A DNA stretch of 64,000 nt. Source: Terriglobus aquaticus (GTDB lineage: Bacteria > Acidobacteriota > Terriglobia > Terriglobales > Acidobacteriaceae). The notes under the pieces were generated by a model, which did no database searches, was not told where the DNA came from, and worked only from the letters and a program-made list of their open reading frames with translations. Positions 20,790 through 31,343 of this stretch are shown here, piece by piece; position 1 is the stretch's first letter, and the number at the start of each line of letters is the position of its first letter. The translations under genes were made by a program, and so were the position numbers. The stretch is from NCBI RefSeq assembly GCF_025685415.1, contig NZ_JAGSYB010000001.1, positions 3,720,001-3,784,000 on the forward strand. The letters run 5' to 3'.

Positions 20790-20899
20790 CGGCAGAAGCA
20801 GCGGTCTGAGGCGCGGGAGCAACACTGTGCGCTCGATTCGTCATCTGTCCAAGGACACCGTTGCCCCGGCTCCTCCGGCGCAAGGCGGGGAGCGTACGT

Positions 20900-23800
20900 T
20901 TGAGCACTGCAGAGATCACACGTCCCATTCCGAAGCGTCGCAAGCCGGGTTCCGCGACGGATCCGCTCTGGTACAAGGACGCGATCATCTATGAGCTGCA
21001 CGTCAAGGCGTTCAACGACTCGAACGGCGACGGCTACGGCGACTTCCAGGGCATCATCCAGAAGCTGGACTACCTGCAAAGCCTCGGTGTGACGTGCATC
21101 TGGGTGTTGCCGTTCTTTCCGTCGCCGCAGCGCGATGACGGATACGACATCAGCGATTACATGTCGGTGAACCCCAATTACGGGACCATCGACGATTTTC
21201 AGCAGTTCCTCGATCAGGCTCACGCCCGCGGTATGCAGGTGATGATCGAGCTGGTCATCAATCACACCAGCGATCAGCACCCGTGGTTCCAGGCGGCACG
21301 CAACTCGCCCAAAGGCTCGCCCGAGCGCGAGATGTATGTCTGGTCCGACACGGACAAGCTGTACTCCGGCGTTCGCATCATCTTTACGGATACCGAGAAG
21401 TCCAATTGGACCTGGGATCCGGTTGCGGGACAGTACTACTGGCATCGCTTCTTTTCGCACCAGCCCGATTTGAACTTCGACAACCCGCGCGTGATGGAAG
21501 AAGTGCTGAATGCCATGCGCTTCTGGATGGACATGGGCGTGGATGGTCTGCGCCTCGACGCGATTCCGTACCTGGTGGAGCGCGACGGTACCAGTTGCGA
21601 GAACGTGCCCGAAACGCACGTGGTTATCAAGCAGATCCGCGCGGCTATTGACGCGGAGTACGAAAATCGCATGGTGCTGGCCGAGGCAAACATGTGGCCA
21701 GACGACGTGCGTCCCTATTTCGGCGACGGCGACGAGTGCCAGATGGCGTTCCACTTTCCGTTGATGCCGCGCATCTACATGGCACTGCGGCAGGAAGATC
21801 GCCTGCCGATCACGGAAATCATGGCGCGTACGCCGGAGATCCCGGCGAACTGTCAGTGGGGCCTTTTCCTGCGGAACCATGACGAGCTGACGCTCGAGAT
21901 GGTCACGGACGACGAGCGTGACTACATGTGGTTGGCCTACTCGGCCGACCCGCGCATGCGCATCAACGTCGGCATCCGCCGCCGCCTGGCTCCGCTGCTC
22001 GACAACAACCGGCGGCGCATCGAGCTGCTGAACTCGCTACTGCTGTCGTTCCCGGGCACACCGATCCTCTACTACGGTGACGAGATCGGTATGGGCGACA
22101 ACATCTACCTGGGCGACCGCAACGGCGTTCGTACACCCATGCAGTGGAACAGCGATCGCAACGCCGGCTTCAGTCGCGCCGTTCCGGCCATGCTGTATTC
22201 GCCCGTGATCATGGATCCGATCTGGGGCTATGAGGCGATCAACGTCGAAGCGCAGGAGAGCGACACCAGCTCGTTGCTGCACTGGACGCGCAACATGATC
22301 GCGCTGCGCAAGCTGTTCCAGGTGTTCGGTCGTGGCACGCAGGAGTTCCTGAAGCCGGAAAATCGCAAGGTGCTCGCCTATCTTCGCGAGTACGAAGGCG
22401 AGCACGTAGTGTGCGTCGCCAACCTGTCCCGCTTTGCGCAGCCCGTCACGCTGGACCTTTCGCGCTTTGCCGGAATGGTGCCAGTCGAAATGCTGGGCTA
22501 CGTCCCATTTCCCAAGATCGACTCCACGCCGTACGCTCTCACCCTGGCGCCCTATGGGTTCATCTGGCTGGAACTGCAGCCGGCCCGGACGGTCGAAGAA
22601 GAGGGCGGCACGCCCGAGCAGATTGCAAAGGAAGTAACCTTGCCCGCCAACGACATCGAAAGCGTGCTGACCGGTGCCGGCGCCCAACTGCTGCAGGAGT
22701 CATTCCTGCCGCGGTATATCTGCGGCCAGCGGTGGTTCGGAGCCAAGTCGCGCCAGATCCGCAACGTGTGCATTCTGGACTCCATTCGACTGGATTCCAC
22801 CGACGCGGCGCTGCTGCTGCTGGAGGTGCAATACAGCGACGGCGGACCGCACGACCAGTACACGCTTCCGCTAGCGGTGCGCCGCGTGGCGGGAGATGTC
22901 AGCTATCCGGAAGCCTCTGTGGTCGCAAAGCTCTACAACCCGGACTACTCGGGCGTTCTTCTGGACGGCCTGATCCTGCCGGAAGTGCGCGATTACTTCC
23001 TGCAGGCGATTGGCGCCGGTGTGCAGCAGCAGACGGCGCACGGCGGCACGCTGCAGGGCCTTGCCAGTTCTGCCTTCTCGCGGCTGCGGGGCGACGGCTT
23101 GCTGGAATCGCGCAAGAGCTCGGCCGAACAGAGCAACAGCAGCATGTTCTTTGGCGACCGGCTCATTCTGAAGCTGTTCCGCCGTCTGCAGCCAGGGGAA
23201 AATCCGGACGCAGAGATCGGCCGATTCCTGACCGAAGTCGCGCACTACGAACACATCGCGCCCTTCGCCGGCGAACTGGTGTACACGCCGGCCGACACCG
23301 ATGGCGTTGCCGGCCAGCCAACCACGGTCGGCCTGCTGCAGGGCCTAGTCAAGAACAACGGCGATGGCTGGTACTGGACGCTGGACCAGATCAAGGATGG
23401 CAGCGCCACCTACAACGACGCGGCACGTCTGCTGGGCCGTCGCACTGCGGAAATGCACCTGGCTTTGGCAACGCCCACAAACAACGCAGCGTTTGCCGCG
23501 GAAGCCACAACGGCAGAGGCCCTGGCAGCCGATGCGGAACGACTGGAGGCGCAGATCGCTGCGGCTCTGCAGGCCGTGCGGTCGCGCATGACGACGTTGA
23601 GCGAAGACCTGCTCACGCCCGCAGCTACGCTGATCGCACATCGGAACGATTTGCACGCCGTGGCAGCGCAGCTTCGCACGCTGAACCCGCAGGAAGCTGG
23701 CATGCGCACCCGCATTCATGGTGATTACCACCTGGGCCAGGTTTTGCGTACGGAAAGCGACTTCGTTCTGCTCGACTTCGAGGGTGAGCCAGCCCGGTCG

Positions 23801-24145
23801 CTCGAAGAGCGTCGGGCCAAGCAGTCGCCGTTGCGCGATGTCGCTGGAATGCTGCGCTCGTTCTCTTACGCGGGTGTGGCTGGTTTCGGCGTTGACACCG
23901 AGCGCGAGGAGCAGCGCCGCAGATGGGAGCAGGACGCCTCGGCCGCGTTCCTGGCGGGATATCGCGAAGCGTATCCGCAGGGGTCCGATCACACGGGCAG
24001 CGCGGCTGTTGCGCCGCAGTTACTGCGCGCGTTTCTGCTGGAGAAGTCGCTCTACGAACTCATGTATGAATTGAACAACCGGCCTGATTGGATCAGCATT
24101 CCCTTGCAGGGCATTCTGGAGCTGCTGGAGCAACGCGAAAGGTAG
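20900..24145 (+). CDS. treS: Trehalose synthase-maltokinase fusion, TreS-Pep2 (1081 aa)
   Basis: The N-terminal GH13 domain (about 1-570) interconverts maltose and trehalose. Its triad is visible as D220 (in DGLRLDAIPYL), E262 (LAEANMWP) and D328 (FLRNHDEL). The C-terminal part (about 600-1081) is a maltokinase making maltose-1-phosphate with ATP. It shows RWFGAKSRQIRN, the catalytic-loop HGDYHLGQVL at 940-949 and the metal site DFEGEP at 959. The fused form feeds the GlgE alpha-glucan pathway. TTG at 20900 is chosen because GGGGAG lies seven bases upstream. A TTG at 20861 would add 13 unconserved residues. The next gene starts three bases after the stop. Confidence 0.93.
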   Translation: MSTAEITRPIPKRRKPGSATDPLWYKDAIIYELHVKAFNDSNGDGYGDFQGIIQKLDYLQSLGVTCIWVLPFFPSPQRDDGYDISDYMSVNPNYGTIDDFQQFLDQAHARGMQVMIELVINHTSDQHPWFQAARNSPKGSPEREMYVWSDTDKLYSGVRIIFTDTEKSNWTWDPVAGQYYWHRFFSHQPDLNFDNPRVMEEVLNAMRFWMDMGVDGLRLDAIPYLVERDGTSCENVPETHVVIKQIRAAIDAEYENRMVLAEANMWPDDVRPYFGDGDECQMAFHFPLMPRIYMALRQEDRLPITEIMARTPEIPANCQWGLFLRNHDELTLEMVTDDERDYMWLAYSADPRMRINVGIRRRLAPLLDNNRRRIELLNSLLLSFPGTPILYYGDEIGMGDNIYLGDRNGVRTPMQWNSDRNAGFSRAVPAMLYSPVIMDPIWGYEAINVEAQESDTSSLLHWTRNMIALRKLFQVFGRGTQEFLKPENRKVLAYLREYEGEHVVCVANLSRFAQPVTLDLSRFAGMVPVEMLGYVPFPKIDSTPYALTLAPYGFIWLELQPARTVEEEGGTPEQIAKEVTLPANDIESVLTGAGAQLLQESFLPRYICGQRWFGAKSRQIRNVCILDSIRLDSTDAALLLLEVQYSDGGPHDQYTLPLAVRRVAGDVSYPEASVVAKLYNPDYSGVLLDGLILPEVRDYFLQAIGAGVQQQTAHGGTLQGLASSAFSRLRGDGLLESRKSSAEQSNSSMFFGDRLILKLFRRLQPGENPDAEIGRFLTEVAHYEHIAPFAGELVYTPADTDGVAGQPTTVGLLQGLVKNNGDGWYWTLDQIKDGSATYNDAARLLGRRTAEMHLALATPTNNAAFAAEATTAEALAADAERLEAQIAAALQAVRSRMTTLSEDLLTPAATLIAHRNDLHAVAAQLRTLNPQEAGMRTRIHGDYHLGQVLRTESDFVLLDFEGEPARSLEERRAKQSPLRDVAGMLRSFSYAGVAGFGVDTEREEQRRRWEQDASAAFLAGYREAYPQGSDHTGSAAVAPQLLRAFLLEKSLYELMYELNNRPDWISIPLQGILELLEQRER

Positions 24146-24147
24146 CC

Positions 24148-25398
24148 ATGGCACTGGAGCAAACAATCACCGCAGAGCAGGAATCGCACGACCAGGCACA
24201 CGTCTCGGGCAGCAACACAGAGGTGCCGTTTGTGATCGCTCTGGGGACGTCCTACCTGGACGCAGCGCCGGAACAGATCGCGGCGCTGCTGCCCTGGCTA
24301 CGCACGGTGGTCGGGGCCACCCAGCGTGAGGTGCTGGTCGGGTATCCCGTGACCCACAGCGGTGCGACCTCCGAGCAGCAGGACGGGTTTCTACTGCAGC
24401 CGTTTGTGGCGAATGCGGGTGCCGCCGACTCCGTGGTGCAGACCGCAAACGCCTGGCTTAGTGCGTATGAACTGGTGCGTGCACACGGAGCTCGTTGCTG
24501 CCTGATTCTGGGCGGCGAAGCGCAAAGCCTGGATGCCCAAGCGGCCGCATCGCTGCTGGATGCCGTGAGCAGCGGTGGCGCCGACTTGGCGGTGCCGCGT
24601 TACAACCTGCCCACCAACCAGGGCTTGCTCAATGCGGCGGTGCTATCGCCGCTCTCACGCGCGGTATTCAACGCAGATCTGCGGTTCCCGCTGGCGCTCG
24701 ACTTTGCCTGCTCCGCTCGCATGGCGGAACGCATGGCCGCCGCAGCGCAGCGGTTCACCTCCAACGCTCAGCCGGACGCCGTTCTGTGGCCAGTGGGCGA
24801 GGCGGCCGTGGCGGGCTATACGCTTGCTGAGATCGCTGCCGGACCGAGGGCGCTTCCCCAAGTCGACCAGGATCTCGGTACCATTCTCATCCGCGTCGCC
24901 GGTTCCATGTTTGCGGATGTAGAGGCAAAGGCCACCTTCTGGCAGCGCACGCGGCCGGCGACTCCGGTGCTTCGGGCCGATGGCGGCCTGTCCACCGCAC
25001 CAGCGTTGGCCGACTCGCCTTCCGCGGAAGAAATCCAGTCTCTGGTGGAAAGCTTCCGCGTGGGCTACAGCAATCTGCATGAGATCTGGTCGCTCGTGCT
25101 GCCGCCCAACACTCTGGTCGCGCTGAAGCGCCTGTCTGCCGCGCCGGTGGAGTCCTTCCAGCTACCGGACAGCACCTGGGTCCGCATTGTGTACGACTTT
25201 GTGCTGGCGCATCGGCTCAGAACTATCGCTCGCAACCACCTGATGGGCGCCTTTGCCCCGCTCTATCTGGCGTGGGTGGCTTCGCACCTGGCGCAAAGCC
25301 GGGGCGATGCGCACGTAGAAGCTTTGGCCCGCGCCTTTGAGGCGGACAAGCCATACCTGGTATCTCGCTGGCGCTGGCCCGACCGGTTCAACCCGTAA
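24148..25398 (+). CDS. Degenerate glycosyltransferase-like protein linked to treS (416 aa)
   Basis: The overall layout resembles GT81-type glucosyl/mannosylglycerate synthases. These share a Rossmann-like N-terminus, a mid-section with LPTNQGLLNAAVLSPLSRAV, the strand LRFPLALDFACSARMAE, and the C-terminal helical segment TWVRIVYDFVLAHRLR...PLYLAWVAS. However, the metal-binding D-x-D expected near residue 122 reads GGE. The usual GGDF element reads ALDF (D185). It may be a catalytically altered or non-catalytic relative. ATG at 24148 has AAAGG upstream and lies two bases after treS, so the two are co-transcribed, pointing to trehalose, glycogen or compatible-solute metabolism. Confidence 0.5.
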   Translation: MALEQTITAEQESHDQAHVSGSNTEVPFVIALGTSYLDAAPEQIAALLPWLRTVVGATQREVLVGYPVTHSGATSEQQDGFLLQPFVANAGAADSVVQTANAWLSAYELVRAHGARCCLILGGEAQSLDAQAAASLLDAVSSGGADLAVPRYNLPTNQGLLNAAVLSPLSRAVFNADLRFPLALDFACSARMAERMAAAAQRFTSNAQPDAVLWPVGEAAVAGYTLAEIAAGPRALPQVDQDLGTILIRVAGSMFADVEAKATFWQRTRPATPVLRADGGLSTAPALADSPSAEEIQSLVESFRVGYSNLHEIWSLVLPPNTLVALKRLSAAPVESFQLPDSTWVRIVYDFVLAHRLRTIARNHLMGAFAPLYLAWVASHLAQSRGDAHVEALARAFEADKPYLVSRWRWPDRFNP

Positions 25399-25468
25399 GT
25401 TGTCGAGCGCGCCGGAACTGATCTGAAGCCCATCCGCTAACCGCCACATGGTGGCGAGGAGACAAACA

Positions 25469-26197
25469 ATGCTTTCCCAGATGAAAGACGCACTCGTCGG
25501 GTCTACACAGAGCGTGCTTGTAAAGCTGGCGAACTTCCTGCCCGCCGCGCTCGCACTTCTGATCGCGATTGCTCTGTTTGCCCTGATCGGCGCGGGGCTC
25601 AGTTGGCTTGTGCGGCGCCTGCTTGGCCGCGTCAAATTCGACGAGCGCGCGGACCGTGGTACAGTCGGCGTCTCGGACTGGTCGCCCTCGCACTCGCCCA
25701 CGCTGCTGGTCGGTCGCATCGTGTTCTGGGCCTGCACGCTCCTGGGCGTCGTCGTTGGTATCTCCGCCTTTGACGCCGCTTCGTCCACCTACAATCTCAC
25801 ACCCTTCTTCCTGCCCTACCTGGCGCATGGTGTTGGAGCGTTCCTCATCGCGGTCGCCGGCATCATCGTCGCGCGGTACCTGTCGCGTTCCATCCTGATC
25901 AACGCGTCCAACGCCAAGCTGCAGTATGCCCGCCTGCTTTCCCTGGGGGCGAAGTACCTGGTGCTGGTCTTTACCGGCGCCATGGTGCTGGATCACATCG
26001 GCATTGGTGGAACCATCGTGGACCTTGGCTTCGGCATCCTCTTCGGGGGCATGGTGCTGACGCTTGCGCTTGCCGTGGGTCTTGGCTCTCGCGAAGTCGT
26101 TGCGCGATCCATTGAACGGAGCGCCGACCGCTCCACGCCCATCGACACCGCGGCACGCACCTCGGCCGATCCCGCACGCACCATCCGCCACTTCTAG
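25469..26197 (+). CDS. Mechanosensitive-channel-like TM-helix repeat protein (242 aa)
   Basis: A membrane protein with about five hydrophobic segments. The central and C-terminal repeats (LVFTGAMVLDHIGIG...GILFGGMVLTLALAVGLGSRE) match the conserved TM helix found in small MscS-related proteins. The Gly-rich GLGSREVV after the last segment resembles the pore-helix end, but the cytoplasmic beta domain of MscS is missing. ATG at 25469 has GAGGAG at good spacing, and an ATG seven codons upstream is less likely. It lies 70 bases after the treS-linked gene and three bases before the PIG-L gene, so it may belong to the same transcript. An osmotic role is a plausible inference. Confidence 0.65.
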   Translation: MLSQMKDALVGSTQSVLVKLANFLPAALALLIAIALFALIGAGLSWLVRRLLGRVKFDERADRGTVGVSDWSPSHSPTLLVGRIVFWACTLLGVVVGISAFDAASSTYNLTPFFLPYLAHGVGAFLIAVAGIIVARYLSRSILINASNAKLQYARLLSLGAKYLVLVFTGAMVLDHIGIGGTIVDLGFGILFGGMVLTLALAVGLGSREVVARSIERSADRSTPIDTAARTSADPARTIRHF

Positions 26198-26200
26198 CGG

Positions 26201-26896
26201 ATGGGTGTGATCGTTCCAATCACCTTAGAGCCCGAGTGGCAGGCAGCCCTTTCTGCAGTGCCCTCCTGGCAGCCGCCGCTTGTGCCCACTGTGGTCGTCG
26301 CGCCCCACCCGGACGACGAAACTCTGGCCGCCGGGGGCCTGATCGCCCACCTGCGCGAGCGGGAAACAGACGTCCGCGTCATTGCCGCGACGGACGGCGA
26401 ACACGCGTATGAGGGCGAGACCGGGCTTGGCCCCATCAGGGAAGTGGAGCAGCAGCAGGCGCTTGAGCGGCTCGGTGTCGAGGCGAACTCGATCCACCGT
26501 CTCCGCCTCTGCGATAGCGGCTTGTCTGCCCTTGAGACGGAGTTGGCACTAGCGATGGAGCCACTCCTCCGGGATGCCCGCCACATCGTGGCGCCATGGC
26601 CGCATGACTTCCACCCGGACCACGAAGTCACAGGCCGTGTTGCCCTGGCCTTGGCGAACCGGCTTGGCATCCCGCTCACTTGGTACTTCTTTTGGACGTG
26701 GCACCGCGGCCGGCCCGATCTACTGCACGGACTTCCGCTGCGAAAGCTCCTGCTGAGCGCTGCGGAACAGCAGGCCAAGCGCGAAGCACTCGCTTTCCAT
26801 GTCTCGCAACTGCAACACAGCAGCGGAGAGCCCATCTTGCCTGAGAACCTGCTGGAGCCTGCCTGGAGATCGTTTGAGGTATTTTTACCCGCATGA
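26201..26896 (+). CDS. PIG-L family deacetylase (231 aa)
   Basis: A zinc-dependent deacetylase of the LmbE/PIG-L family, which removes acetyl groups from N-acetylglucosamine-containing molecules. The metal-binding and catalytic motif APHPDDET is at residues 34-41, and the second motif FHPDHEVTG (H138, D140, H141) completes the site. Length is typical. It starts three bases after the preceding stop codon. Its last codons overlap the next gene in an ATGA arrangement, so it is the first member of a translationally coupled set with a methyltransferase, a GT2 and an acyl-CoA-dehydrogenase-like gene. Confidence 0.9.
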   Translation: MGVIVPITLEPEWQAALSAVPSWQPPLVPTVVVAPHPDDETLAAGGLIAHLRERETDVRVIAATDGEHAYEGETGLGPIREVEQQQALERLGVEANSIHRLRLCDSGLSALETELALAMEPLLRDARHIVAPWPHDFHPDHEVTGRVALALANRLGIPLTWYFFWTWHRGRPDLLHGLPLRKLLLSAAEQQAKREALAFHVSQLQHSSGEPILPENLLEPAWRSFEVFLPA

Positions 26897-27477
26897 TCTT
26901 CCGCAAAAAGCTCGACCCCTCCAGCGCGAGTTTTTTTGAGCAGAAGTACAGGAAGACCGCCGATCCCTGGAACTTCGAAAAGAGCCAGTATGAGCAGGCG
27001 CGCTACGACGCCATCATCGCTGCCCTGGCAGGCAGGCGCTATCACAAGGCGTTCGAGCCCGGGTGTTCCGTGGGAGCTCTCACAGCCAAGCTGCTGACCG
27101 TCTGTGATCAGGTGGAAGCGATCGACTTTGCTGCTTCCGCGATCGCAACCGCGCGTCAGCGTAATCCCGATCCGCGAGCGCATTTCCAGGTGATGAGCTT
27201 GCCGGAACGTTTGCCGCTTCTCGGCTTCGACCTGATCGTGCTCAGCGAGATCGGATACTACTTCACGGCCGAGCAATGGAGTGAGTATGTCGACTCCATC
27301 GTCTCGACTTCGGCGCCCGGTTCCACTCTCATCGCAGCACACTGGCTTGGTGTTTCACAGGATCACCGTTTGTCCGGAGACGAGGTCCACGCCACTCTGC
27401 GAGCGCACCCCAACTTGCATCTACAGCACGAGGAGCGCCATCCGGCGTTTCGCTTAGATCGGTTGGAGCGCAGTTGA
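26893..27477 (+). CDS. NodS-like SAM-dependent methyltransferase (194 aa)
   Basis: A class I methyltransferase resembling NodS, which N-methylates the deacetylated end of chitooligosaccharides. The N-terminal segment FFEQKYRKTADPWNFEKSQY is highly characteristic of that family. The SAM-binding loop is FEPGCSVGALTAKL, followed by an acidic VEAIDFA strand and the LPLLGFDLIVLSEIGYYF motif. The start overlaps the PIG-L stop (ATGA). GT2 starts directly after its TGA. The deacetylase-methyltransferase order parallels NodB-NodS chemistry, but the substrate here is unknown. Confidence 0.85.
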   Translation: MIFRKKLDPSSASFFEQKYRKTADPWNFEKSQYEQARYDAIIAALAGRRYHKAFEPGCSVGALTAKLLTVCDQVEAIDFAASAIATARQRNPDPRAHFQVMSLPERLPLLGFDLIVLSEIGYYFTAEQWSEYVDSIVSTSAPGSTLIAAHWLGVSQDHRLSGDEVHATLRAHPNLHLQHEERHPAFRLDRLERS

Positions 27478-28218
27478 ATGAGTCGAAACGGTAAGCCTGC
27501 TCAAGGCTGTGCAGACTTGCGTCACGTGGCAGTCCTGATTCCAGCGCGCAATGAGGAACAGTTACTTCCGCGCTGTCTGCGATCTGTTCAGATCGCACGC
27601 ACGTCGCTGCCGTCCGATTTCACAAGCGATGTGGTCGTGGTCTCCGATCGCTCCAGCGACCGAACGCGCGAGATTGCCGAAGAGATCCTTGGACATTCGG
27701 GTGCAGTCGTCTGCACCAGCGCGGGTGTGGTTGGCATGGCGCGCGCATTGGCCGCACGCGTTGCACTGCAGCGCTTTAGCGGTCTGGCGGCAGGATGTTG
27801 GTTCGCCAACACGGACGCGGACTGCGAGGTGCCGCCTACCTGGCTAACCGATCAACTGCGCCTTGCCCGTGACGGCGCCGACGCGGTCGCAGGCATTGTC
27901 GACGTGCATGACTTCTCGGAACACCGGGCACATGTTGCGCTTCGCTTTCGTGACACGTATTGCGTCAACGCAGACGGAACTCATCCGCATGTTCACGGAG
28001 CCAACCTCGGCGTCCGGGCGGATGCCTACTTGCGGGCCGGCGGCTGGGCGGCCATTGCCACTGCCGAAGACCACGATTTGTGGGGCCGGTTGCACGGTAG
28101 CGGTCATGCGCGCGTGAGCGATGCCGCTCTGCAGGTGATCACCAGCGGGCGACGCGTAGGCCGCGCGCCGCACGGCTTCGCCGATGCCCTGGCAGCACAT
28201 AACGGCTGCGCCGCGTGA
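27478..28218 (+). CDS. Family 2 glycosyltransferase (246 aa)
   Basis: A GT-A glycosyltransferase. The nucleotide-binding N-terminus is VAVLIPARNEEQLLPRCLRS, the metal-binding D-x-D is in NTDADCEVPPTW, and HGANLGVRADAYLRAGG plus the EDHDLWGRL acceptor loop complete the catalytic set. There are no membrane segments, so it is a soluble or peripheral enzyme rather than a processive synthase. It starts immediately after the methyltransferase stop codon. Its own stop overlaps the next start in GTGA. Nucleotide sugar and acceptor cannot be predicted from sequence. Confidence 0.88.
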   Translation: MSRNGKPAQGCADLRHVAVLIPARNEEQLLPRCLRSVQIARTSLPSDFTSDVVVVSDRSSDRTREIAEEILGHSGAVVCTSAGVVGMARALAARVALQRFSGLAAGCWFANTDADCEVPPTWLTDQLRLARDGADAVAGIVDVHDFSEHRAHVALRFRDTYCVNADGTHPHVHGANLGVRADAYLRAGGWAAIATAEDHDLWGRLHGSGHARVSDAALQVITSGRRVGRAPHGFADALAAHNGCAA

Positions 28219-29165
28219 CGTCGCAAGCGGCGTTCCTGGAACGCGTGCGAGCCGTGTGCGATCGTAGCCTGCCGCACCTCGGCGGTGGCGAAACGCCGCA
28301 GCGTCACGCGGTTCTCTTTGACATCGGCGAAGAGGACCTGAGTCTGGCCAAGATCGCCGAGGCTCATTTCGATGCCCAGGCCATCCTCGACGAAGCCCGC
28401 TTGTCTCCGGAAGACGGAGCCATTTACGCGGTGTGGGCCAGCGAGGTGCCCGGCCAAGGCCTCGAACTGCTGCGCGGGATCGGCTCAGCGGATTGCATCA
28501 CCGGTGGAAAGCCGTTCTGTAGCGGAGCCACGCTGGTCGATCGAGCGCTGGTCACCGTAGCGCATCCAGAGCCGCTGCTGGTGGAAGTGGACCTGCGTCG
28601 CGCGCGCGGAACAGTCGATTGGGATCTGTCCCAATGGAGCACCGAAGCCTTCCGCCTGACATGCACGGGAGCGGTGCGGTTTCAGCAGACTTCTGTGGAG
28701 CGTGTCGTTGGGGCTGCCGGCTTCTATCTCGATCGGCCCGGCTTCTGGCACGGTGCCTGCGGTCCCGCAGCGTGCTGGGCGGGCGGAGCAGCGGGCCTGC
28801 TTCACTTTGCGCGGCAAAGCAAGCGAAACGACGCACACACGGTCGCACATCGTGCGGCCATGGAGGCTAACGTCTGGACGATGCGCACGCTCCTGACGCA
28901 GGCCGGTGTTGAGATCGACCAAGCACCCGGCGACCGCGGAGCAGCACACGTGCGAGCTCTGCGTTTGCGCCACATGGTGGAGCAGCTTGCCGACGACACG
29001 TTGCAGCGATTCAGCCGCGCATACGGTCCACACCCGCTTGCCATGGACCCCGCGATGAGCCGGCGGTGCGCGGAGCTGAATCTGTTCCTACGGCAATGCC
29101 ATGGCGAGCGCGACCTGGAAGCACTGGGCCGTGCCGAGGCGGAGTTGCAAGCCGCTCGAGCGTAG
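28215..29165 (+). CDS. Acyl-CoA-dehydrogenase-like protein (316 aa)
   Basis: This resembles acyl-CoA dehydrogenases (LRGIGSADCITGGKPFCSGA, then a beta domain and a C-terminal helical bundle with MEANVWTMRTLLTQ). At 316 residues it is about 60 shorter than typical enzymes, chiefly at the N-terminal helical domain, and the catalytic Glu could not be located. FAD-linked desaturation of an acyl chain is the family reaction, and a divergent or non-catalytic role is possible. The GTG start overlaps the GT2 stop. It ends the plus-strand module, seven bases from the convergent acyltransferase. Confidence 0.7.
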   Translation: MTSQAAFLERVRAVCDRSLPHLGGGETPQRHAVLFDIGEEDLSLAKIAEAHFDAQAILDEARLSPEDGAIYAVWASEVPGQGLELLRGIGSADCITGGKPFCSGATLVDRALVTVAHPEPLLVEVDLRRARGTVDWDLSQWSTEAFRLTCTGAVRFQQTSVERVVGAAGFYLDRPGFWHGACGPAACWAGGAAGLLHFARQSKRNDAHTVAHRAAMEANVWTMRTLLTQAGVEIDQAPGDRGAAHVRALRLRHMVEQLADDTLQRFSRAYGPHPLAMDPAMSRRCAELNLFLRQCHGERDLEALGRAEAELQAARA

Positions 29166-29172
29166 TCCCGGT

Positions 29173-30333
29173 TCAGCTGAAGCGTCGCTTCAACACACTC
29201 TGGATCTTCGGATCGATCCACAGCGCAAGCAGCGTGGCCAGGGCAAAGATCGTGAGCACCGCGCACGCGAAAGCGCCGTACCATCCCAACGCTGGATGCA
29301 GCTTCATGGTGATGGAGTAGCCGAGACGATTGTGCAGCAGGTATAGCGGGTAGGTGACCAGGCCCATGGCACGCAACGCGCTTACACCGCGCTTGCCGAG
29401 TCGATGCTGCAGGGCCCCGTTGTATCGCACGGAAGCCCAGATCATTCCCACGGTGCCAATCCAGATAGCTTCGGCGCCCCACTGCGGAAACCACATCTCC
29501 AGGTAGGGCTGAGCGATCGTTGCGTGATACCAGATTTCCATCAGGCAACCGGCAACGCTGATCGTCAGCGCGAGGGCGTGCTTCCAGCCGGCCCGGTACC
29601 CCGGCCGCAGCATGGCATCCCACACCAGCACGCCTGTTGCGAAGAAGCATCCATGCAGAATCAGCAGGCTTGGGTAAAACGAGAGATGCTGCAGCGACTT
29701 GTGAACGATCGTCCAAATGCGTCCCGACCAGAAGGGATCTGCCGTGACAAACGACCAGTACACAAAGCTAACGGTGCCAACCACCGTCATCGCGCGAGGT
29801 AGCCAGCGCAACCGCCTGCTTGCGATCAGGAGGAACACAAGCAGATAGAACGCGACCTCAACCGGCAGGGTCCAGAACGGATCGTCGATGTACTCGGTCA
29901 CGTGGCTGCCCGGCGTAAACACGATCGTTTCCAGCACGTCGCGGAACACTGCCGGCAAGGTCAACGCATGCATCCACAGTGCCGCGCCAGCGGCGACCAG
30001 GGCACACAGAACGCACATGGGCCACAACCGAAAGAAGCGATACTTCGCAAACTTCGCCGCTGAGACACTCTGCGCCGAGTACGCAATCACGAAGCCCGAG
30101 ATCACAAAGAAGATCTCAACGCCGATCCACCCGTAGCAGAACACGGGACGCAGTGGCATGAATGCCGTGGTCGGCATCACACCGCCATTGCGGCTGCGCA
30201 GCCACGAAGACACGATCAGGTGTGATCCCATCACCAGCAAGGCCGCTAGGAGGCGGAGCGCGTCGATGCCCACCACCTGCTTGCGCAAGGGTTGGTGTAC
30301 CGGCAGATCGTGGGAGGGAGGTTGCGACCTCAT
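29173..30333 (-). CDS. Acyltransferase family 3 membrane protein, OafA-like (386 aa)
   Basis: An integral-membrane O-acyltransferase with about ten hydrophobic segments. GIDALRLLAALLVMGSHL near the N-terminus contains the conserved His of the first helix. GWIGVEIFFVISGFVIAYS is the family's signature, and YPLYLLHNRLGYS is the C-terminal YxxHxxx-type element. Such proteins acetylate or acylate surface sugars such as O-antigen or Nod factors (NodX). The ATG at 30333 overlaps the TGA of the upstream acyltransferase (ATGA), so both are translated from one message. It is convergent with the GT2/PIG-L module across a seven-base gap. Confidence 0.85.
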   Translation of the reverse strand: MRSQPPSHDLPVHQPLRKQVVGIDALRLLAALLVMGSHLIVSSWLRSRNGGVMPTTAFMPLRPVFCYGWIGVEIFFVISGFVIAYSAQSVSAAKFAKYRFFRLWPMCVLCALVAAGAALWMHALTLPAVFRDVLETIVFTPGSHVTEYIDDPFWTLPVEVAFYLLVFLLIASRRLRWLPRAMTVVGTVSFVYWSFVTADPFWSGRIWTIVHKSLQHLSFYPSLLILHGCFFATGVLVWDAMLRPGYRAGWKHALALTISVAGCLMEIWYHATIAQPYLEMWFPQWGAEAIWIGTVGMIWASVRYNGALQHRLGKRGVSALRAMGLVTYPLYLLHNRLGYSITMKLHPALGWYGAFACAVLTIFALATLLALWIDPKIQSVLKRRFS

Positions 30334-31343
30334 CGGCTCAGGGACCACCTTGGGAAGACGAATAGAAAGCGTGCATGCAGATCGTCGCGGTGGTGATAGA
30401 CCCAACCTCCAAACAGCACTGCGGCCAGCGAAGGAAGCAGCAACTGCACCGTCTTGCCTGTCAGGTGCACGTGCAACAGCAGGGTGCGCACCGCTACCTG
30501 GGCGTACGGCGCCAGCAGAAAAATGCCAATGGAGGCCTGGCCACACCAGGCGAGCCAGTGTCCGCCATCGGTTCCGTCGACGACGCGGGCGGCGAGCAGC
30601 AGCATGCCTGTACCCGCCAGCGCCAGCAGCAGCGAGCCGAAGTAGTTCCACTCCCAATGACGGGCTGTGCCGTGCCAGATCAGCCAGGCGATGCTCGCCG
30701 CCAGCACCGAAGAAATGACCCGCGGTATGCGCACGACCTGCTGCACTCTTCCTCCAACGATCGCGCCCAGGATGACCATGGGCAGGAAGAAAAGCCCCGC
30801 AGCGACGAAGTTGATCGGGATTGCCAGGCAGTACTTGCGCACTACTAGCGAAATGGCTAATAGCAGGATCATGGGCACAGAGACGGGCAGACTGATCACG
30901 ATCGCGAACACAGCAAGCGCGAAGAACAGCGTGGGCAAGAACCACGCACCCGCCGCGGTGAAAAACGTCCAGGCGACCGCGGTCCACGCAGGCTGAAGTT
31001 TGTGGGTGACGTGTGCGCCCACGCGGAAGATCACCAGGTTCAGCAGCTCAAACAAGAAATAAGGCCATAGCAGGGTCGAAACACGGTCCCGCAGAAATCG
31101 AGGCAGTCCGCGTTTGCGCAGACTGCCGGTGGCAAACAGTCCAGCCAGGAAGAAAAACGCCGGCATGTGAAAGCTGTACATCCACTCATAGATCCGTACA
31201 TCCAGGCTGGATCCCTGCCACAAGCCGCGGCTCGTCATCCCCTGACTGGTATGGCCGATCACGACCAGGATGATGGCCAGTCCGCGCGCCGCGTCGATCA
31301 ACTCCGAGCGCGCCGCCGGCTCGCCGGCTGTAACAGGCTGCAT
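30330..31343 (-). CDS. Acyltransferase family 3 / fucose 4-O-acetylase-like membrane protein (337 aa)
   Basis: A second acyltransferase-3 family protein, similar in layout to the fucose 4-O-acetylase group. ELIDAARGLAIILVVIGHT carries the conserved His in TM1, and YSFHMPAFFFLAGLFATGS is a second family motif. About ten membrane segments are visible and there is no periplasmic SGNH domain. ATG at 31343 lies eight bases after the upstream CRTAC1 stop, and a possible weak ribosome site overlaps that stop. It is coupled to the downstream acyltransferase by a four-base overlap. Confidence 0.85.
   Translation of the reverse strand: MQPVTAGEPAARSELIDAARGLAIILVVIGHTSQGMTSRGLWQGSSLDVRIYEWMYSFHMPAFFFLAGLFATGSLRKRGLPRFLRDRVSTLLWPYFLFELLNLVIFRVGAHVTHKLQPAWTAVAWTFFTAAGAWFLPTLFFALAVFAIVISLPVSVPMILLLAISLVVRKYCLAIPINFVAAGLFFLPMVILGAIVGGRVQQVVRIPRVISSVLAASIAWLIWHGTARHWEWNYFGSLLLALAGTGMLLLAARVVDGTDGGHWLAWCGQASIGIFLLAPYAQVAVRTLLLHVHLTGKTVQLLLPSLAAVLFGGWVYHHRDDLHARFLFVFPRWSLSR

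Follow-up and report, generated by a model that had tools for sequence, protein, structure and literature searches.

A conserved four-gene cassette of Terriglobus aquaticus that may produce a modified amino-sugar glycoside

Nod-factor biosynthesis, encoded by the nodC, nodB, nodS and nodA genes, follows a logic of glycosyltransfer, de-N-acetylation and N-methylation, with NodB adopting the polysaccharide-deacetylase fold. Mycothiol and bacillithiol are made by another logic, in which a GT4-type glycosyltransferase (MshA or BshA) builds a small glycoside that is deacetylated by a PIG-L enzyme (MshB or BshB). Reactions resembling both are encoded in a 64,000-nucleotide stretch of the Terriglobus aquaticus genome (NZ_JAGSYB010000001.1, positions 3,720,001 to 3,784,000 of the forward strand; hereafter the window), where four plus-strand genes specify a PIG-L deacetylase, a NodS-like methyltransferase, a family-2 glycosyltransferase (GT2) and P0004, a flavoprotein of the acyl-CoA dehydrogenase (ACAD) fold. 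These four genes are a co-inherited, conserved unit with conserved catalytic residues. We propose, with a likelihood a little short of an even chance, that they form a mobile and self-contained cassette whose product, a small and soluble amino-sugar glycoside, helps the cell to survive stress. The initial annotation of this DNA had grouped the four genes with two neighbouring acyltransferases into a Nod-factor-like set; the present analysis strengthens the four-gene core, removes the acyltransferases from the set and puts a probable flavin oxygenation in place of the acyl step.

Organisation and conservation of the four genes

The first gene of the cassette encodes a PIG-L (LmbE-like) deacetylase of 231 residues (26201-26896, plus strand, as for the next three; PF02585, 91 bits against a cut-off of 28.2) and is joined by an ATGA overlap to the gene of a NodS-like class I S-adenosylmethionine methyltransferase of 194 residues (26893-27477; PF05401 NodS, 58.4 bits against a cut-off of 24). 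The TGA stop of the methyltransferase gene immediately precedes the ATG of the GT2 gene, whose product is a soluble GT-A glycosyltransferase of 246 residues (27478-28218; PF00535, 66.3 bits), and a GTGA overlap then joins GT2 to P0004, a short ACAD-fold flavoprotein of 316 residues that appears monooxygenase-like from its predicted model and profile (28215-29165). The coordinates and overlaps are those of the initial annotation, and the Pfam scores bear out its naming of the first three proteins. Peak 19-residue Kyte-Doolittle hydropathy ranges from 1.09 to 1.51 across the four proteins, the value for GT2 being 1.51; the usual threshold for a membrane segment is 1.6. Four further PIG-L genes lie outside the cassette in the same genome.

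Relatives of the cassette were gathered by anchoring on the P0004 family; a search of the genome collection with its profile yielded at least 597 pattern matches, and at least 565 of these were confirmed. The 80 best confirmed loci were joined to 8 loci from the plasmid collection, 3 acidobacterial loci and the window, so that counts over these 92 loci lean to close relatives; some loci also repeat a genome (L019 is nearly identical to L020, and the contigs of L020 and L023 are of equal length). When a cassette is scored with domain-level profiles and called complete if the four genes lie on one strand within 4 kb, 76 of the 92 loci are complete. The retention of the set by these loci, which come from three phyla (Acidobacteriota, Actinomycetota and Pseudomonadota), shows that the four genes are grouped beyond chance, and conserved adjacency elsewhere, which had been set beforehand as the test of the original proposal, thus holds.

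A single cyclic order, in various rotations, is found in 74 of the 76 complete loci, and two deviate from it. The rotation that starts with the flavoprotein (ACAD, PIG-L, methyltransferase, GT2) occurs in 37 loci, and in 2 more with PIG-L fused to the methyltransferase; the order of the window (PIG-L, methyltransferase, GT2, ACAD) occurs in 18, including the other acidobacteria and Legionella; the third (GT2, ACAD, PIG-L, methyltransferase) is present in 16, plus 1 with the same fusion. Because these orders track taxonomy, they do not represent independent events. The identity matrices of the four families, compared over the 73 loci that every one of the four alignments contains and leaving out L019-L021, correlate at 0.76-0.85, a level matched by none of 500 permutations for any family pair and to which shared species history contributes.

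Gene fusions link the same partners. PIG-L is fused to the methyltransferase in three loci (L039, L076 and L081), hosted by a Pseudonocardia, another member of the Pseudonocardiaceae and a Nesterenkonia. On a sibling branch, two acidobacterial genomes carry an ACAD-like protein fused to a NodS-like methyltransferase (L145, 9090-10943, minus strand; L146, 8720-10822, plus strand), with PIG-L and GT2 adjoining on the opposite strand. The deacetylase-plus-N-methyltransferase logic put forward in the initial annotation is strengthened by the PIG-L fusions and by NodS being the best functionally named match of the methyltransferase profile.

Catalytic residues are nearly invariant. In PIG-L, the HPDDE motif (36-40) and residues D136, H138, D140 and H141 are retained in 81-82 of 82 aligned relatives; a profile search against solved structures places diacetylchitobiose deacetylases first (88 bits), with MshB and BshB-type enzymes among the later matches, and the NCBIfam equivalogs for MshB and BshB are not reached (31.9-51.5 bits against cut-offs of 182.5-224.35). 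The methyltransferase retains D24, P25, Y33, E34, E55 and C58 in 80 of 82 relatives, and its score of 61.2 bits against the NCBIfam NodS model, far under the cut-off of 300, marks it as related to NodS without being NodS. Since its profile lies nearest to the structure 4isc (227 bits, E 1.9e-66) and to NodS (104 bits), followed by phosphoethanolamine N-methyltransferases, N-methylation is the best guess for its activity. GT2 has Pfam matches limited to Glycos_transf_2 and Glyco_tranf_2_3 and keeps its DAD (113-115) and ED (197-198) motifs in 79-80 of 81 relatives. Its predicted model (predicted local distance difference test, pLDDT, 94.2) finds GT-A enzymes as structural matches and identifies it as a plain GT-A enzyme.

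P0004, a short flavoprotein of the ACAD fold

P0004 has no match in Pfam or NCBIfam, and no ACAD Pfam domain is detected in it at E<=0.01, so that the description "acyl-CoA-dehydrogenase-like" given in the initial annotation stands for the fold and not beyond it. Among seven relatives, the ACAD Pfam domains are absent from three, below the cut-off in two and above it in two (L016 and L017, of the sibling type). The predicted model (pLDDT 96.2; predicted template modelling score 0.93) shows an ACAD fold whose N-terminal part is short, and Foldseek finds 280 matches to it in the PDB at E<=0.001, of which the 50 listed belong to the ACAD superfamily. The top ranks, mostly flavin monooxygenases and N-oxygenases, are held by MAB_4123, TdsC, XiaF, KijD3, Rv3094c, DnmZ, MsuC and DszC, with dehydrogenases interspersed and mostly lower. 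The family profile gives a comparable ranking, in which 5gj7 and 5z8t (titled putative acyl-CoA dehydrogenase and flavin-containing monooxygenase), TdsC, DszC and MsuC come before ordinary dehydrogenases, enzymes of the DszC/TdsC type lead those with a functional name, and KijD3, a nitrososynthase and DnmZ rank lower.

The P0004 family carries GxKxxCSGA where DszC has GTKHFCSGA, with C102 retained in 88, S103 in 87 and G104 in 89 of the 92 sequences; at this site, the five usable oxygenases show one close form (CTG) and four SSG. In the sibling flavoprotein of Novosphingobium L016, whose motif is GGKSFASGA, alanine replaces the cysteine. The serine of the DszC motif corresponds to position 163, counted along the alignment, a residue that we take to be important in that enzyme. 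His391 of DszC is described as assisting flavin hydroperoxide formation (PMC11134501). Within the P0004 family, E49 and H51 are invariant (92/92); of the 92 sequences, 91 keep Q294 and 89 keep H296, which may correspond to His391. RQ(S/H/C)H stands in this family in place of the C-terminal EGT-type loop of dehydrogenases, in which 6 of the 10 dehydrogenases aligned have Glu at the base position. KijD3 and DnmZ are presented as glycoside-modifying N-oxygenases (PMC5481743), and an ACAD-family protein has been proposed as an N-oxygenase from its similarity to KijD3 in a preprint (PMC10849742).

Judged from sequence comparison and the predicted model, P0004 is unlikely to be an acyl-CoA dehydrogenase. 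The name "acyl-CoA dehydrogenase", which the fourth protein bears in 25 of the 37 plasmid records with a relative, would then probably be wrong as to chemistry. No acyl-CoA dehydrogenase was found in the T. aquaticus genome itself in a PF00441 search. The NodA-like acylation implied by the initial annotation finds no support here, the fourth conserved protein being an ACAD-fold flavoprotein nearest to monooxygenases.

Genomic surroundings and distribution

A theme that the initial annotation had not raised is the presence of stress genes near the cassette. By raw count over the stretches retrieved, 22 of the 92 loci have a KatE-type catalase nearby (at most 20 distinct ones, because some loci repeat a genome), 7 have DNA ligase D, 7 have topoisomerase IB and 6 have ferritin-like genes. 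Trehalose-related genes (TreS, OtsA, OtsB or a Legionella GH65) are near 7 of 92, a raw count that takes in L030, whose gene is TreS-like at 41% identity, and L036, which has the GH65 gene alone. On a Comamonas plasmid, otsA and otsB flank the cassette, the gene ends overlapping or nearly abutting; on an Acinetobacter plasmid, the cassette has catalase on one flank and, on the other, a major facilitator superfamily (MFS) transporter followed by otsA and otsB; in the window, it sits downstream of a treS unit. The sibling cassette of Novosphingobium L016 (385-9033) follows a catalase gene and three extra glycosyltransferase genes in one gene string.

The upstream unit of the window comprises a trehalose synthase-maltokinase (TreS-Mak; 20861-24145, plus strand; TIGR02456, 925 bits, and TIGR02457, 413 bits), a divergent glycosyltransferase-like protein (24088-25398, plus strand) and, directly upstream of PIG-L, an MscS-like membrane protein (25448-26197, plus strand; NF033912, 47.4 bits against a cut-off of 100; PF05552, 22.1 against 22). 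The second of these has no Pfam match of its own and was recognised through a distant homologue, L153 (31% identical), which reaches PF21969 mannosylglycerate synthase exactly at the cut-off, with 27.0 bits. TreS-maltokinase, the glycosyltransferase and the MscS-like protein form a syntenic unit free of the cassette in all three relatives fetched (L154-L156), and the cassettes of two same-genus loci (L140 and L141) have no TreS beside them; treS was accordingly rejected as an ancestral partner. The three genes are outside the conserved cassette, which appears to have been inserted downstream of an osmoprotectant operon, given that the unit exists without it and that cassettes of the same genus stand elsewhere. 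Third-position GC content is 66-74% in the cassette, a little under the 77-80% of TreS, purD and the MscS-like gene.

On the other side, two minus-strand genes encode Acyl_transf_3 membrane proteins (29173-30333, PF01757, 77.5 bits; 30330-31343, PF01757, 102.6 bits), and the converging stops are 7 bases apart, as the initial annotation had placed them. The former protein has 386 residues when read from an ATG that overlaps the stop of the other acyltransferase gene (ATGA), its listed 604-residue open reading frame (ORF) beginning earlier in the same frame; the latter weakly resembles the Nod-factor acetyltransferase NolL (40.6 bits against a cut-off of 425). Neither has a homologue in the other 91 loci (phmmer, E<1e-3) or in 10 acidobacterial loci (phmmer, E<1e-5). 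Present in the window alone, both were rejected as cassette parts and are regarded as convergent bystanders; their membership of the pathway, as first suggested, is thus withdrawn.

Strong P0004-family matches (at least 349 bits) occur in 10 of 395 acidobacterial genomes, all from the family of T. aquaticus and including 3 of the 7 genomes listed for its genus. Four further acidobacterial places score 94-140 bits; at any score, 128 of the 395 genomes match, those at 41 bits or less looking like ordinary ACADs. A plain single-sequence search of 199 acidobacterial genomes found a match in 4. One acidobacterial genome (G371) holds three separate cassette copies (L142, L143 and L144). The 37 records of the plasmid collection that carry a relative come from Acinetobacter, Cupriavidus, Comamonas, Legionella, Kitasatospora and others, some of these "plasmids" being chromosome-like at 2.5-5.7 Mb. 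From such a distribution we infer that the cassette is horizontally mobile. Two records labelled Acinetobacter phage, which from their length of 232-306 kb could be bacterial contigs, also carry a P0004 relative.

Proposed pathway and comparison with known systems

In the pathway proposed here, every substrate, the order of the steps, the oxygenase chemistry, the mobility of the cassette and its protective role are what we infer. The soluble GT2 would place an N-acetyl-hexosamine on a soluble acceptor, PIG-L would strip the acetyl group and expose the amine, and the NodS-like enzyme would methylate the freed amine. P0004 would then oxygenate the product with reduced flavin supplied by a host reductase, N-oxygenation of the amino sugar being favoured. 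In its most detailed form, which is unlikely to be right in every part, the product would be a cytoplasmic amino-sugar glycoside, N-methylated and also N-oxygenated (N-hydroxy or nitrone-like, for example) and perhaps built on trehalose or another compatible solute. It would protect against stress together with KatE and trehalose, and its cassette would spread and rotate its gene order.

A number of observations weigh against the glycoside proposal. At least one cassette gene is missing from 16 of the 92 loci, five of which carry the ACAD gene alone; five of the 16 (L029, L049, L055, L088 and L101) come from contig fragments 4.5-11 kb long. In most loci the searched stretch contains no catalase and no trehalose genes, the two same-genus cassettes fetched lack TreS beside them, and the single catalase of the T. 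aquaticus genome is about 1.3 Mb from the cassette. The immediate neighbours are varied: in a Pfam scan of 143 of the 144 nearest-neighbour ORFs selected from 37 loci, some of them probably non-coding and with 25 of 112 families viewed, catalase ranks first yet accounts for 4 ORFs, and MFS transporters for 2. The last points concern P0004 and lend themselves to a different reading, in which it works as a genuine dehydrogenase on an intermediate, carrier-bound or otherwise, and the product is therefore unsaturated or an imine instead of oxygenated. Glu298, retained in 80 of 92 sequences, is three residues from the dehydrogenase base position, and a tree of 16 of the 58 family rows, 2 siblings, 5 oxygenases and 10 dehydrogenases (L113, L121 and L126, among 18 comparison ORFs, were excluded as apparent mis-picked frames) sets the P0004 family in a clade of its own (0.99), joined to neither the oxygenases nor the dehydrogenases. 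The ACAD fold of the model and the dehydrogenases lower in the profile and fold rankings also suit this reading; however, monooxygenases come first by both profile and fold, P0004 has no EGT-type loop where the base normally lies, and neither a carrier protein nor a CoA ligase occurs among the annotated neighbour clusters and the families viewed. A dehydrogenase therefore appears improbable, and monooxygenase is the better-supported reading of P0004, short of proof because of the separate placement of the family in the tree.

The broader reading of the initial annotation, a modified lipid or envelope glycan such as an N-methylated aminoglycolipid or a surface sugar, draws on the structural neighbours of GT2, which include the polysaccharide and teichoic-acid glycosyltransferases K4CP, WrtF, RmlT and TarS/TarP, on PF02585 being the GlcNAc-PI de-N-acetylase family, and on an LPG-synthase-type membrane-domain protein near four Pseudomonas loci. 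It is made rather unlikely by the four proteins themselves, whose hydropathy peaks all stay below the usual limit for a membrane segment, and by the neighbourhoods: no membrane acyltransferase, flippase or polymerase is seen to recur widely among the 20 annotated neighbour clusters (out of 22 found in at least four loci) and the 25 of 112 families viewed, and the acyltransferases of the window are unique among the 92 loci. The patchy distribution and plasmid location of the cassette, the antibiotic-pathway enzymes among the nearest flavoproteins, the MFS transporter after the Acinetobacter cassette, with MFS at 2 of 143 neighbours, and, in 5 loci, an ABC ATPase cluster no more than 8 kb away would also fit a tailoring set for a specialised metabolite, whether antibiotic or signal. 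We consider this very unlikely, as no polyketide synthase or nonribosomal peptide synthetase is present among the annotated clusters and the 25 of 112 families viewed, and KatE catalase is the most recurrent neighbour.

A cassette that spans three phyla, with catalase or trehalose genes nearby in a minority of loci, suggests a widespread small molecule that may be absent from current maps of bacterial stress physiology. Because the core is small and apparently soluble, the product can be sought directly by expressing the four proteins. No paper describing the four-gene set was found in the title listings of the literature searched, and a modified amino-sugar compound made by it seems to be undescribed so far.

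The PIG-L and NodS-like steps can be likened to the NodB-NodS pair and to the MshA-MshB logic, and the membership tests place the cassette in neither system. For the individual enzymes, the methyltransferase belongs to the same family as 4isc, which is labelled solely "Methyltransferase" in its listing. P0004 shares with KijD3, DnmZ and DszC/TdsC the ACAD fold, together with a DszC-like CSG motif, but differs from them in its length (316 residues against about 365-410 in the listed structures), its short N-terminal helical part and its clade apart from the oxygenases compared. As in mycothiol and bacillithiol synthesis, a glycosyltransferase is paired with a PIG-L enzyme; however, the glycosyltransferase is a GT2 and not a GT4, PIG-L stays far under the MshB and BshB cut-offs, and the four-gene core adds a methyltransferase and a flavoprotein, with no ligase or thiol gene. 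Assignment to the nod system was rejected, in agreement with the initial annotation, which had held that the locus is not a copy of it: the methyltransferase is far below the NodS cut-off, GT2, with its 246 residues and peak hydropathy of 1.51, is not a processive membrane chitin synthase of the NodC type, and NodA has no match in Pfam and NCBIfam scans of ten window proteins. What the cassette has in common with the Nod-factor genes is the succession of glycosyltransfer, de-N-acetylation and NodS-related N-methylation, with PIG-L in place of NodB; a NodC-like membrane synthase and NodA are absent, and a flavoprotein is the conserved fourth member.

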